58,076 bases of DNA from assembly GCA_015059095.1 (NCBI GenBank), contig SVBA01000011.1, forward strand, positions 1 through 58,076. The letters are read 5' to 3'. Below are positions 99-3,536 of the stretch, piece after piece. Positions within the stretch are counted from its first letter, which is position 1; every line of letters starts with the position of its first letter. The notes beneath the pieces were generated by a model that worked only from the letters and a program-made list of their open reading frames with translations, did no database searches and had not been told where the DNA came from. This DNA comes from Erysipelotrichaceae bacterium (lineage in GTDB: Bacteria; Bacillota_I; Bacilli_A; RFN20; CAG-449). A program made the position numbers and the translations under genes.

Positions 99-124
99 AC
101 GTATATGAGAACATATACGTTTTT
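99..124 (+). terminator. Intrinsic terminator of the upstream (off-window) gene
   Basis: Perfect 9-bp stem (ACGTATATG / CATATACGT) with an AGAA loop at 99-120, followed by a T-run. It separates whatever lies to the left from the cassette beginning at 186. Confidence 0.7.
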
Positions 125-185: not shown

Positions 186-785
186 ATGAAAATCCAAATA
201 AGAAGAGGAATGTTTGAAACGAATAGTTCTTCAGTTCATTCTTTAATCATCACTAATAAAAGAGATAAAGATAAAGATTATGAAAAAATGAAAAAAGAAG
301 AAGCTATATGGTATCCAGAGTATATTTATGAATCAAATTGCGTTCATACTAAAGAAGATAAAGTTTTAATGCTTGGAGGATTATTTGATTTTGAAAATGT
401 CGAAGGTGGCTGGTTGAAAGATGAATATAAAATCTTTATCAAAGTACTAAAAGATAATAATGAATTTGAATTAATTGAAAAACTAAAAGCTAATAAAGAA
501 GAATATAGAAAAGAAAGAGATGAACCTTATTGTACTAATTATTTTTGTGAAGGATGTCTAATTGAATGTTCATGTTCTTTTTATTCGAAATTTAATGAGT
601 ATTTTAGAAGCGGTTCACTAAATATGCGTGAATTAAGAAAAGACATTGGTGATTTAGGTCTTTCTGAAGAAGAACATGAAAAATTACTAAGAAAAATGTT
701 AAGAGAAAATAAAAAAGAATTATATAAAAAGATATATGATTTTATATATGGAGATGGATTAATCATACCTTATGCAACAATGTAA
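186..785 (+). CDS. FETNSSS-signature protein of unknown function
   Basis: A 199-residue soluble protein with no assigned function. The start at 186 is chosen because TGGAGGA lies just upstream; the frame stays open back to 105 but has no ribosome site there. The first 20 residues carry the signature FETNSSSVHSL (F10-L20). From memory this recurs in uncharacterised phage and bacterial proteins, but I cannot verify that here. A Cys cluster (C116, C121, C124, C128, C130) suggests a bound metal. The rest is charged and Lys/Glu-rich. The gene overlaps the radical SAM gene by 14 nt, so the two are probably co-translated. The protein could be a substrate or partner of that enzyme; this is inference. 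Confidence 0.6.
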   Translation: MKIQIRRGMFETNSSSVHSLIITNKRDKDKDYEKMKKEEAIWYPEYIYESNCVHTKEDKVLMLGGLFDFENVEGGWLKDEYKIFIKVLKDNNEFELIEKLKANKEEYRKERDEPYCTNYFCEGCLIECSCSFYSKFNEYFRSGSLNMRELRKDIGDLGLSEEEHEKLLRKMLRENKKELYKKIYDFIYGDGLIIPYATM

Positions 786-2172
786 ATTATTAAAAGAATA
801 TCAAAATGGAAATTACAAAGTAAGAATATATTCTGATGGAACAAAGATTAGATTTTCTAAAGATGATGAACTAATTTCAGAATTCCCAGAAAGCATCGAT
901 TTAAAAATTACTAATCGATGTGATTTAAGATGTCCAATGTGTCATGAAAAATCTACTCCTAGTGGAAAAAATGGTTCTTTTGATTATCCTTTCTTTGATA
1001 CTTTAGTTCCAGGTACTGAACTTGCTATTGGAGGAGGAAATCCTTTAGATCATGTTGATTTAGTTCCATTTTTAAAGAAAATGAAAGAAAAAGGAATTAT
1101 CTGTAATATTACAGTTAATCAAATTCATTTAGTTAGATTCAAAGAATTAATTCAAAAATTAATAGATGAAGAATTAGTCTATGGAGTAGGAATATCGGTT
1201 ACTAAAGATTTATTTGTTGAGGAAGTTATTGAATTTGCCAATAAGAACTCTAATTGTGTAATTCATGTTATTGTTGGAATTATTGAAAAGAAAGTACTAG
1301 ATAAATTATCTAATAAAGGATTAAAACTATTAATATTAGGCTATAAATATAGAGGCAGAGGAAAGTTCTATCTAACAGAAAAAAATGATGTTAATAAAGA
1401 GTATTTATTTAATAATATTTTAGAAATATCTAAATGTTTTGATATCGTTTCTTTTGATAATATGGCGATAGTTCAATTACGAATGAAACAAAAAATAGCA
1501 AACTTTGATGAGAACTTTATGGGTGAAGATGGTGATTTTACTATGTATATTGATTTAGTAAAAAAAGAGTTTGCAGTATCTTCGACTAGTGAAGATAGAT
1601 TTCCATTAATGGACAACATTAAAGATATGTTTAAAAAAGTTAAAGAATCTATTATTGAATATCATGTAGAATATTATCTTTCAAAAGACGAAGATGAAAT
1701 TTTATATTCCTCTTTAAAAGAAGATGATTCATTTACTTTTACTTTTAATGAAGAAACTAGAGAATGGGAATTTTGTCCTTTAAGACTAAGAGATATTTCT
1801 CGACAATTAGAAAAAATAGATGAGAATTTGGCAATCTTTATAACAATGGGTGTATTTGTTGAAGACTTATATAGAGAAATGTTTGGATTACGAATATTTG
1901 AAAAAAAGGAAAGAAAAGTAGAACCTGTTGAAGATCTAATTAATAGTTTAATAGAGTTTACTAAAGATCATTATAAACATGGTGTTGATAAGGACTTTTT
2001 ATTAAATCTTTCAATTAAAGAAGTAGAAAATGCTTATCATTGTGGCTATCTAGATTTAGTAGAAGAATACTATAATGATATTAATAATAGAAATTTAGAT
2101 TATATTCATATTGAGAAAACAGAAGATGATTATATTGTTAGAATTAAAGAAGAAGTATTGAAAGGAGAATAA
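772..2172 (+). CDS. Radical SAM enzyme, unassigned reaction
   Basis: A 466-residue protein with the radical SAM CxxxCxxC motif at C50, C54 and C57 (CDLRCPMC), which binds a 4Fe-4S cluster and S-adenosylmethionine, followed by a glycine-rich AIGGGNP segment of the kind that contacts SAM. Only the N-terminal half looks like the TIM-barrel core. The C-terminal half, rich in Glu/Lys with one CPL segment, is not a domain I recognise and has no clear SPASM Cys set. The ATG at 772 lies inside the preceding gene, with a GGAGATGG site 15-20 nt upstream. It sits two nucleotides before the TerB-like gene. Family is confident; substrate unknown. Confidence 0.85.
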   Translation: MQQCKLLKEYQNGNYKVRIYSDGTKIRFSKDDELISEFPESIDLKITNRCDLRCPMCHEKSTPSGKNGSFDYPFFDTLVPGTELAIGGGNPLDHVDLVPFLKKMKEKGIICNITVNQIHLVRFKELIQKLIDEELVYGVGISVTKDLFVEEVIEFANKNSNCVIHVIVGIIEKKVLDKLSNKGLKLLILGYKYRGRGKFYLTEKNDVNKEYLFNNILEISKCFDIVSFDNMAIVQLRMKQKIANFDENFMGEDGDFTMYIDLVKKEFAVSSTSEDRFPLMDNIKDMFKKVKESIIEYHVEYYLSKDEDEILYSSLKEDDSFTFTFNEETREWEFCPLRLRDISRQLEKIDENLAIFITMGVFVEDLYREMFGLRIFEKKERKVEPVEDLINSLIEFTKDHYKHGVDKDFLLNLSIKEVENAYHCGYLDLVEEYYNDINNRNLDYIHIEKTEDDYIVRIKEEVLKGE

Positions 2173-2174
2173 AT

Positions 2175-2597
2175 ATGGGAAAATACGAAAGTTTAATTAA
2201 TGCTTATGAATCTTGGGATTTAGATTCATTATGTAATGAAGCATATTATGTATCATGTGCTTTAAGAGATGATGTTGCTAGAAAATGTAGAGACGTTAGA
2301 GATCCTTTAACTGCAGCATTAATGATTGGAGCGTATTTTATGGATGCAGATGGAATGAGTGATGGTGATGAAGACGAATTATATAGAAGATTATTTAAGG
2401 GCGCACCAATGTCAGAATCTGGCTTTTATTGGTTAAGAGATTATCGTCAATACAATTGGGAACCATGGGTAATTAGCTATTTAAGAAGTTGCAATTCTTA
2501 TGAATTAGAAAACGCATTAAGATTCGGTATTATTGTTTGTGCTGCTGATGGATTTGTAAAAGATTCTGAAAGAGCTAGAATTTTAAGATGGGCATAA
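2175..2597 (+). CDS. TerB-like helical protein
   Basis: A 140-residue acidic protein. Two segments resemble the DG-x-D-x-x-E helix turn of TerB-like domains: MDADGMSDGDEDEL near residues 55-68 and CAADGFVKDSERARI near the C-terminus. TerB-fold proteins are small helical, metal-associated domains found in stress and phage-response loci. The resemblance is by eye and modest. The ATG follows the radical SAM stop by two nucleotides and AAAGGAGAA supplies the ribosome site, so it belongs to the same operon. Function is not known. Confidence 0.5.
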   Translation: MGKYESLINAYESWDLDSLCNEAYYVSCALRDDVARKCRDVRDPLTAALMIGAYFMDADGMSDGDEDELYRRLFKGAPMSESGFYWLRDYRQYNWEPWVISYLRSCNSYELENALRFGIIVCAADGFVKDSERARILRWA

Positions 2598-2601
2598 AAT
2601 T

Positions 2602-3492
2602 ATGAGTTATTTATACAAAAAAAGTTTAAGATTTAAAGCAGGTAAAAAAGAATACCAATATTCTTTAGGAAAAGATGAGTTACCATCATTTATGGGTGGT
2701 ATGTTTGGAAAGAGTGAAGAAATTAATGGAGTACAAGATTTTATTGATATTGTTAATGGAATTGAAGATGCTCATAATTTTTCATTTTTTGAACTTCCAC
2801 AAGAAGATTTAAATTTGATTTTAAAGTCTATTAATAAGAAAGTAATTACTTTTAAATATGTAGATATAAAGAGTAGTCAAAAAACTTTAGATTTAAGATA
2901 TTTAAAATTGTGTAAAAAATTAAATAGTGTAGATGTTCAATACTGCAATAAAAATGTAAAATTATGGAACATGAGATTTAATCATAAGTTAGAGGAAGTT
3001 TCTATTACAGATTGTAAAAGACTATTAAATCAAAAAGGTTTAATAGGATGTAAAGCATCTAAAGTAACTATTAAAAGATATTCTCATGGAACTCCAGATA
3101 CTAAAGAATTAAGAATAGGTGATTTTAAAGTATTTGAAACGATGCCAAACTTAGTTGAATTAGTTTTATTTATTAAAAAGAAACAAAATAAGAAAGATGA
3201 TTTAATTTCATTATCTAGATTACAAAACTTAAAGAAAATTTCTTTACCAAAAAATTATTTTTTCTTTAATCAATATGCGTGGTTAACTAGCAAACTTCCT
3301 AATGTTAATGGACTAGGATGTTATAAAGTAGAGTATGATCATGCTAATGAAATGGATGGGTATATCATTAATGGATCTAGAATGTGTTGGTATGTTAGAG
3401 GGTTTGAACAAGCTAAACTAAGAAAGTATCAAAGAAGATTTGATAAACTAGTTGAGCAATATAAAAACGAAGAAATACCACCGGTTTGTTAA
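2602..3492 (+). CDS. Leucine-rich-repeat-like protein, unknown
   Basis: A 296-residue protein without signal peptide or membrane segments. The middle (about residues 95-215) contains irregular LxxLxL strands such as LRYLKLCKKLNSVDV, LEEVSITDC, MPNLVELVLF and LQNLKKISLP, consistent with a degenerate leucine-rich repeat solenoid for protein binding. The C-terminal 60 residues are basic and aromatic. It starts four nucleotides after the TerB-like gene with only a weak ribosome site, implying translational coupling, and is the last gene before a strong terminator. No homologue is recognised with confidence. It may be a recognition subunit for the radical SAM enzyme; this is inference. Confidence 0.5.
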   Translation: MSYLYKKSLRFKAGKKEYQYSLGKDELPSFMGGMFGKSEEINGVQDFIDIVNGIEDAHNFSFFELPQEDLNLILKSINKKVITFKYVDIKSSQKTLDLRYLKLCKKLNSVDVQYCNKNVKLWNMRFNHKLEEVSITDCKRLLNQKGLIGCKASKVTIKRYSHGTPDTKELRIGDFKVFETMPNLVELVLFIKKKQNKKDDLISLSRLQNLKKISLPKNYFFFNQYAWLTSKLPNVNGLGCYKVEYDHANEMDGYIINGSRMCWYVRGFEQAKLRKYQRRFDKLVEQYKNEEIPPVC

Positions 3493-3500
3493 ACATAATA

Positions 3501-3536
3501 AAAGATGAGATTTTTGCTAAAAACCTCATCTTTTTA
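3501..3536. terminator. Bidirectional terminator, cassette / metQ
   Basis: AAAGATGAG at 3501-3509 pairs with CTCATCTTT at 3525-3533, with T-runs on both strands. It lies between the convergent LRR-like gene and metQ. Confidence 0.85.

Follow-up and report, generated by a model that had tools for sequence, protein, structure and literature searches.

A radical SAM enzyme family encoded beside diverse proteins that share a short N-terminal tag: a candidate tag-guided modification system in large phages and bacteria

Introduction

We analysed a window of 58,076 nucleotides (nt) from a gut bacterium of the Erysipelotrichaceae (assembly GCA_015059095.1, contig SVBA01000011.1, positions 1 to 58,076 of the forward strand), which carries four closely packed genes at 186-3492. 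The first encodes a protein that begins with a short segment containing FETNSSS, hereafter the tag, and the second a radical S-adenosylmethionine (SAM) enzyme. A preliminary description of this DNA had proposed that the two act as one system, and this idea held up: tag and enzyme co-occur whichever of them a search starts from, and they are also found fused. The presence of the same radical SAM family beside many different tagged proteins, in both large phages and bacteria, suggests an undescribed tag-guided modification system; the pairing is much wider than the preliminary description could see.

Results

Gene content and signals of the locus

The four genes are separated by -14, +2 and +4 nt, as previously described. 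The features of the locus are as follows, with the enzyme family of the window termed class I.

99-120, plus strand: perfect hairpin and T-run directly before the promoter-like site, near the contig end
126-154, plus strand: sigma-70-like promoter candidate, TTTACA-17-TAAAAT, 10/12 matches
186-785, plus strand: gene 1, tag-bearing protein of 199 amino acids (aa), proposed substrate of the radical SAM enzyme; GGAGG at 172-176
201-239, plus strand: N-terminal tag within gene 1, R6-x3-F10-E-T-N-S-S-S16-x-H18
531-575, plus strand: Cys cluster of gene 1 (C116, C121, C124, C128, C130), from the clade alignment
772-2172, plus strand: gene 2, radical SAM enzyme of 466 aa, class I family phrog_16999; 14-nt overlap with gene 1
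919-942, plus strand: CxxxCxxC motif of gene 2 (C50, C54, C57), from a 25-sequence alignment
1519-1590, plus strand: MGEDG..FTMYIDLVKKEFAVSSTS segment of gene 2, putative SPASM remnant without auxiliary-cluster Cys, from comparison by eye with class II enzymes (see below)
1669-2169, plus strand: C-terminal extension of gene 2, about 165 aa, not present in the other 24 aligned relatives
2175-2597, plus strand: gene 3, weakly TerB-like protein of 140 aa, co-transcribed judging by its spacing; not a conserved member
2602-3492, plus strand: gene 4, leucine-rich repeat (LRR)-like protein of 296 aa, with a relative in a genome that has no such radical SAM enzyme
3500-3534, no strand assigned: terminator hairpin of 16 pairs, with T-rich tails on both strands

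Position 1 of the window is base 1 of the contig, so the upstream side is not visible; the hairpin at 99-120 may terminate a gene that lies beyond the contig end, or serve as an operator. A promoter had been placed at 126-154, where a matching site does exist, but promoter-like sites are no more frequent in this region than by chance (22 observed against 31.8 expected from shuffles). The terminator after gene 4 was confirmed as the hairpin at 3500-3534, such sites being found above expectation (3 against 0.5 expected). An in-frame upstream ATG at 105 is a possible alternative start for gene 1. Within its product, FETNSSSVHSL starts at residue 10 as reported; the Cys cluster said to follow it comes only some 100 residues later, at residues 116-130.

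Gene 2 encodes a radical SAM enzyme without auxiliary-cluster ligands

By its CxxxCxxC motif, gene 2 is assigned to the radical SAM superfamily: C50, C54 and C57 are genuine motif residues, invariant in 25 aligned sequences, and they are the only invariant Cys of class I. No C-terminal auxiliary-cluster Cys ligands are conserved, which leaves class I outside the SPASM definition. The enzyme matches phrog_16999, annotated 'Fe-S oxidoreductase' (E 5.7e-44), and scores 21.7 bits against Pfam Radical_SAM, under the cut-off of 29.5. Searches of Pfam and NCBIfam returned nothing above cut-off for gene 1 or gene 2. No known maturase family of ribosomally synthesised and post-translationally modified peptides (RiPPs) was recovered for the enzyme, the best NCBIfam model being TIGR04317 (28.3 bits, cut-off 380), and neither TIGR03942 (anaerobic sulfatase maturase) nor the viperin model is among the 17 NCBIfam models listed for it. 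PADLOC gives a weak pVip match (E 7.8e-5, 89 residues; the library states no cut-off) and nothing else, and we rejected a reading of the locus as a defence system.

The window's enzyme is alone among the 25 aligned in its long C-terminal extension. We also considered whether the enzyme's C-terminus mimics the tag (FA..SS.S); this was rejected, with a profile alignment of -2.5 bits and a comparison with class II that points to a SPASM remnant. Elsewhere in the family, one class I gene (L022:3195-4802) carries an intein-like insertion beside the conserved GGG region, and at two loci, the Breznakiella homolactica chromosome (L106) and L108, the class I enzyme is spread over two open reading frames (ORFs) next to an open tag gene, perhaps as a decayed copy.

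The tag and the enzyme occur together

The enzyme search was seeded from the 25-sequence class I alignment (A2), and the enzyme-first sample comprised 42 genome loci and the best 80 of 185 viral-contig matches, giving 122 class I loci. A FETNSS ORF was present in 108 of these (36/42 genome, 72/80 viral). All 225 FETNSS ORFs lay on the strand of the enzyme, at a median distance of 396 nt, and the exact string FETNSSS occurred in 105 of the 122 loci, while each of the 839 other orderings of its letters occurred in at most two.

Starting from the tag, 54 viral stretches on 48 contigs were collected with a pattern that required Q at tag position -6. The enzyme was present in 42 of these 48 contigs, counting its occurrence in the same stretch, at another locus on the same contig or in the whole record; the whole-record check, part of this tally, recovered it in 5 of 11 records searched. 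Among 392 genomes of the window's phylum, for which the tag pattern required FETN...H, the enzyme was present in 2 and the tag in the same 2. Tag variants were missed because the two patterns demanded these residues.

Of 50,697 phage records, 25 contain the enzyme, and 24 of these also encode a tag protein of one particular body family, fam-0, which no other record contains. The remaining record, that of Salmonella phage Arash, joins tag (FATNSSSSH), body and enzyme in a single protein. The same order of tag (HATNSSSSH), body and enzyme is found within a single protein on a Methylobacterium plasmid, and in both fusions the two halves match their respective profiles. A third fusion, at a chromosomal Clostridia locus (L103), begins with HETSSSSAS, a diverged form of the tag.

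Microcystis phage Ma-LMM01 encodes a tag protein (gp130) two genes before the enzyme (gp128), and in the Lak megaphages of Prevotella the enzyme gene is followed by four to five tandem tag genes whose products begin MK(I/V)x(I/V)Rx(G/S)VFETNSSSxH and are otherwise divergent. Lak phages also carry another N-terminus repeated on different bodies, LYE.I..SI.KSVK..INE (L004:10109-10690, L006:5966-6463 and L006:9691-10263), which is unrelated to FETNSSS and is possibly a packaging signal.

The tag is nearly invariant and is carried by many different bodies

Across 335 tag ORFs (276 unique) the tag has the consensus R-x3-F-E-T-N-S-S-S-x-H(S/T)(L/I). In a leave-one-out analysis R, E and N were invariant (254/254) and H nearly so (254/255); the only replacements of F were W (8), Y (2) and H (1), those of T were S (3) and I (2), and changes at the three Ser were rare. 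FETNSSS is written in 208 DNA spellings among 265 tags, with Ser codons about half TCN and half AGY. Because of this variety of spellings, a cause at the DNA level, such as recombination or an RNA element at the start of tag genes, was excluded; the tag is selected at the protein level.

For fam-0, a model was obtained (75 sequences) with a predicted local distance difference test (pLDDT) score of 91.3, in which the mean over residues 1-10 is 50 and residue 15 opens the first strand. Nearly all invariant columns of this family fall in the tag, which the model places outside the folded domain. The preliminary description had held that its hypothesis would fail if FETNSSS were a buried structural element; in the fam-0 model the tag is not buried, because it precedes the first structured element. 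Gene 1 matches phrog_28997, a family of unknown function, over residues 2-23 only. This profile spans the fam-0 body in 73 of 75 members, and other tag proteins match it only over the tag.

The bodies behind the tag fall into 46 clusters (sizes 121, 77, 7 and smaller, with 28 singletons), the tagged partners in the clusters listed measuring 94-318 aa, and among 105 loci that have more than one tag ORF, 90 contain at least two body clusters. The fam-0 fold, that of the main body family, had no match in the PDB at E <= 0.001 (best E 0.86), and further structure comparison gave Z values of at most 2.1; body function was thus not obtained from the fold, solved structures giving no meaningful match. 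One uncharacterised phage protein, A0A8S5QGU7, did match it (E 6e-7). Nor did we find a third gene that is conserved: the most frequent family of neighbours occurs in 10 of the 122 loci.

A tree of 92 rows was used, drawn from the genome loci whose enzyme ORF measures 271-359 aa, one in every three viral loci, the three fusions and 15 of 51 class II enzymes. The window's own locus (row L008_vir) groups, with support of 98/85, with L069-L074, L076, L077, L081 and L086, all from bacterial genomes. The neighbouring genes scanned in this clade are housekeeping genes: HisZ/HisG-like, family 4 glycosidase, EF-Tu, ABC transporter and glucosamine-6-phosphate isomerase. Among the members read, the tag gene adjoins or overlaps the enzyme gene in L069, L071, L073, L074, L076 and L077; no tag is visible in L070, where the contig stops just beyond the enzyme. 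The Cys cluster is present in 10 of 11 aligned tag proteins of the clade, with C116, C128 and C130 nearly invariant, and is probably metal-binding. It had been proposed that the enzyme modifies either the N-terminus or the Cys cluster of gene 1. Only the tag is universal, the Cys cluster being limited to the clade of the window, and for this reason we narrowed the candidate site to the tag.

A second class of tag is paired with a second class of enzyme

A match on the Agrobacterium plasmid pAt2 (L207) provided the lead to a second tag, MK(I/V)RxDFV[TS]NSSSSSF, here class II. A viral scan found it in at least 120 stretches, with 80 loci listed, and the set examined comprised 83 stretches (80 viral, 2 genome and the plasmid). 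The class II tag was present in 81 of the 83, and a second-class radical SAM enzyme in 50 of these 81, a count that leaves out genes of another radical SAM type at L222, L228, L275, L282 and L284. Among stretches with at least 3 kb on both sides, the class II enzyme was present in 15 of 21, and two of the six without it, L228 and L282, carry a different radical SAM gene. In 79 of 79 cases the class II tag ORF lay on the strand of the enzyme.

Class I and class II enzymes part cleanly by profile score, in a comparison whose class I ORF set (n = 163) includes copies of the window's own gene, and they also part cleanly in the tree, where the 15 class II rows group with support 100/100. Several class II enzymes retain SPASM Cys that are missing from class I, and two of those tested exceed the SPASM cut-off (TIGR04085). 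Both tag classes share the core x-[TS]-N-S-S-S, and on this ground tag type and enzyme type go together.

Class II (L216-L295, L214, L207) is the commoner tag; its carriers are small proteins encoded in tandem next to a SPASM-like class of radical SAM enzyme, phrog_7293. Zinc-finger-like bodies occur among its tag proteins at L231, L237, L258 and L273. The further radical SAM type beside class II tags at the five loci left out above (W.LTR.CNL.C.YCAI or similar) is a possible third enzyme class.

Genes 3 and 4 are not part of the conserved pairing

The preliminary description had counted the TerB-like protein as a member of the system and the LRR-like protein as its recognition part, and neither proposal was supported. 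No relatives of gene 3 or gene 4 were found in the loci examined (L004-L190), and we rejected a four-gene system on that finding. Gene 3 scores 12.9 bits against TerB PF05099 (E 0.14), under the gathering score of 24.4, and besides itself yields one 25-residue match in 195 genomes (E 8.6e-4). Gene 4 is likewise under the cut-off against LRR Pfam models (E 0.34) and has relatives in two of the same 195 genomes, G077 (E 5e-23) and G172 (E 8e-5). The G077 relative (L208:4412-5320) stands alone without TerB, in a genome with no such radical SAM enzyme, and it passes Pfam LRR_4, which supports the LRR assignment of gene 4. Judging by this distribution, we take the TerB-like and LRR-like genes to be local additions.

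Discussion

We propose that gene 1 is probably the substrate of gene 2, and that the enzyme would recognise the N-terminal tag and radically modify a residue within it. In this model, a class I enzyme would recognise R-x3-F-E-T-N-S-S-S-x-H(S/T)(L/I) and modify one of its residues by SAM-dependent radical chemistry, leaving the carrier body free to vary. One phage enzyme would serve up to six tagged proteins encoded nearby, often of different families, and in the window's chromosomal clade the enzyme would usually serve one or two Cys-cluster proteins. It is the action of the enzyme on the tag, its chemistry and the role of the modified proteins that we infer. In class I, the lack of conserved auxiliary-cluster ligands tips the balance slightly towards redox-neutral chemistry (epimerisation, rearrangement or cleavage) and away from oxidative cross-linking. 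W, Y and H, the replacements of F in the tag, are residues able to form radical cyclophanes, and the tolerance of the aromatic tag position for F, W, Y and H only would fit an aromatic cross-link.

We consider it about evenly balanced whether a broader picture applies, in which dedicated radical SAM enzymes of at least two classes, common across large phages and domesticated by bacteria of the gut, all make a single modification to a transferable N-terminal x-[TS]-N-S-S-S tag. Unrelated carriers would thereby gain the same new chemical group, and phages would diversify the carriers and keep the enzyme.

Several points weigh against modification of the tag by its neighbouring enzyme. FETNSS is absent from 14 of the 122 class I loci. 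Five of these 14 have variant tags (L096, L137, L172, L178 and L187), and among the others L103 is a fusion, L109 is its cut-off relative and several lie at contig ends; L149 and L185, with long flanks and no recognisable tag gene within the stretch, are genuine exceptions. Six of the 48 tag-bearing viral contigs are without the enzyme, none of them classed as at least 90% complete. The counts include redundant loci, as seen from the 276 unique proteins among 335 tag proteins and from identical pairs in the tree. The model of gene 1's own product is poor (pLDDT 61.7, residues 1-18 below 50), and for this reason the unstructured tail is seen in only a single body family other than its own. It is also conceivable that the tag is recognised yet left unmodified.

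The alternative that survives best, though we consider it unlikely, is that the tag is a docking signal only and that the enzyme modifies the carrier body, for instance the Cys cluster of the window's clade. Known radical SAM peptide maturases often dock on a leader and act on a separate core, and the retention of the Cys cluster in this clade would agree with such a division. Against this, the 46 body clusters show no residue pattern in common that is evident by eye, it is the tag itself that is nearly invariant, and the fam-0 body is predicted to be a compact fold. A second alternative, to which we give little credence, is that the tag docks on the enzyme while the variable bodies deliver host or phage targets, the tagged proteins being adaptors rather than substrates. 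The number of bodies per enzyme and the body-enzyme fusions could be read in this way, but an adaptor does not require Thr-Asn-Ser-Ser-Ser to be invariant, and a docking site should vary with its enzyme, yet class II retains [TS]NSSS with a different enzyme.

The tag might also be a phage localisation or packaging signal with the enzyme as a frequent neighbour. T4 internal proteins are phage-encoded and carry capsid-targeting sequences that the prohead protease cleaves, and tandem genes with one N-terminus on different bodies resemble such signals, as does the second repeated N-terminus of Lak phages; we nevertheless find this very improbable, given that tag and enzyme stand together in housekeeping chromosomal contexts, are fused to one another and occur in the same 2 of 392 genomes. 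Finally, the TerB-like and LRR-like genes might mark a cassette for stress or phage response, an option first raised in view of the TerB-like member. The 2- and 4-nt spacing and the common terminator speak for it, but it can be set aside almost entirely, as neither gene has relatives at the examined loci (L004-L190), the TerB match is below cut-off, the LRR-like relative in G077 lacks both enzyme and TerB, and PADLOC shows just the weak viperin match.

In the literature searched, with preprints and most subscription journals outside its scope, we found no description of the tag or of its pairing with a radical SAM enzyme. Class I and class II tag strings were unmatched in the text covered, VTNSSS returning only hemp-seed peptides. 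One T4-like phage of marine origin has been described as carrying 12 radical SAM genes, with no mention of the tag in the part of the article available (PMC5332604).

Were the proposal correct, a large enzyme-substrate system would lie among phage genes listed as unknown, with class II commoner still, and a short N-terminal tag would allow radical chemistry to be steered to proteins of choice. What the unexplained PHROG families 28997 and 7293 do would become directly testable, and a chromosomal enzyme-substrate pair would be defined for gut Clostridia and Bacilli.

Comparison with known systems

The phrog_16999 and phrog_28997 entries, represented by Ma-LMM01 gp128 and gp130, state as shown no link between the two families. 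Equivalence of the tag to T4-type capsid-targeting sequences is spoken against by its housekeeping chromosomal contexts. The His-Xaa-Ser, ranthipeptide and triceptide systems likewise combine a radical SAM enzyme with a motif of Ser and aromatic residues; none of their maturase or precursor models reached its cut-off for the window's proteins. The anaerobic sulfatase maturation motif is Ser/Cys-x-Ala/Pro-x-Arg, which is not found in the tag. A RiPP precursor consists of a leader and a short released core; the partners here measure 94-318 aa in the clusters listed, and one is a confidently predicted folded domain.

The closest parallels in organisation are PqqE, the mycofactocin maturase, SkfB, SuiB and the anaerobic sulfatase maturase, in which a radical SAM enzyme is likewise found beside a ribosomal partner with a conserved motif. 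This group has weak profile similarity to the class I enzyme, and the window's enzyme lies far under every NCBIfam cut-off. The conserved positions of class I, unlike these maturases, include no auxiliary-cluster Cys and, unlike their partners, the proteins that carry the tag belong to many families that have only this N-terminal segment in common.

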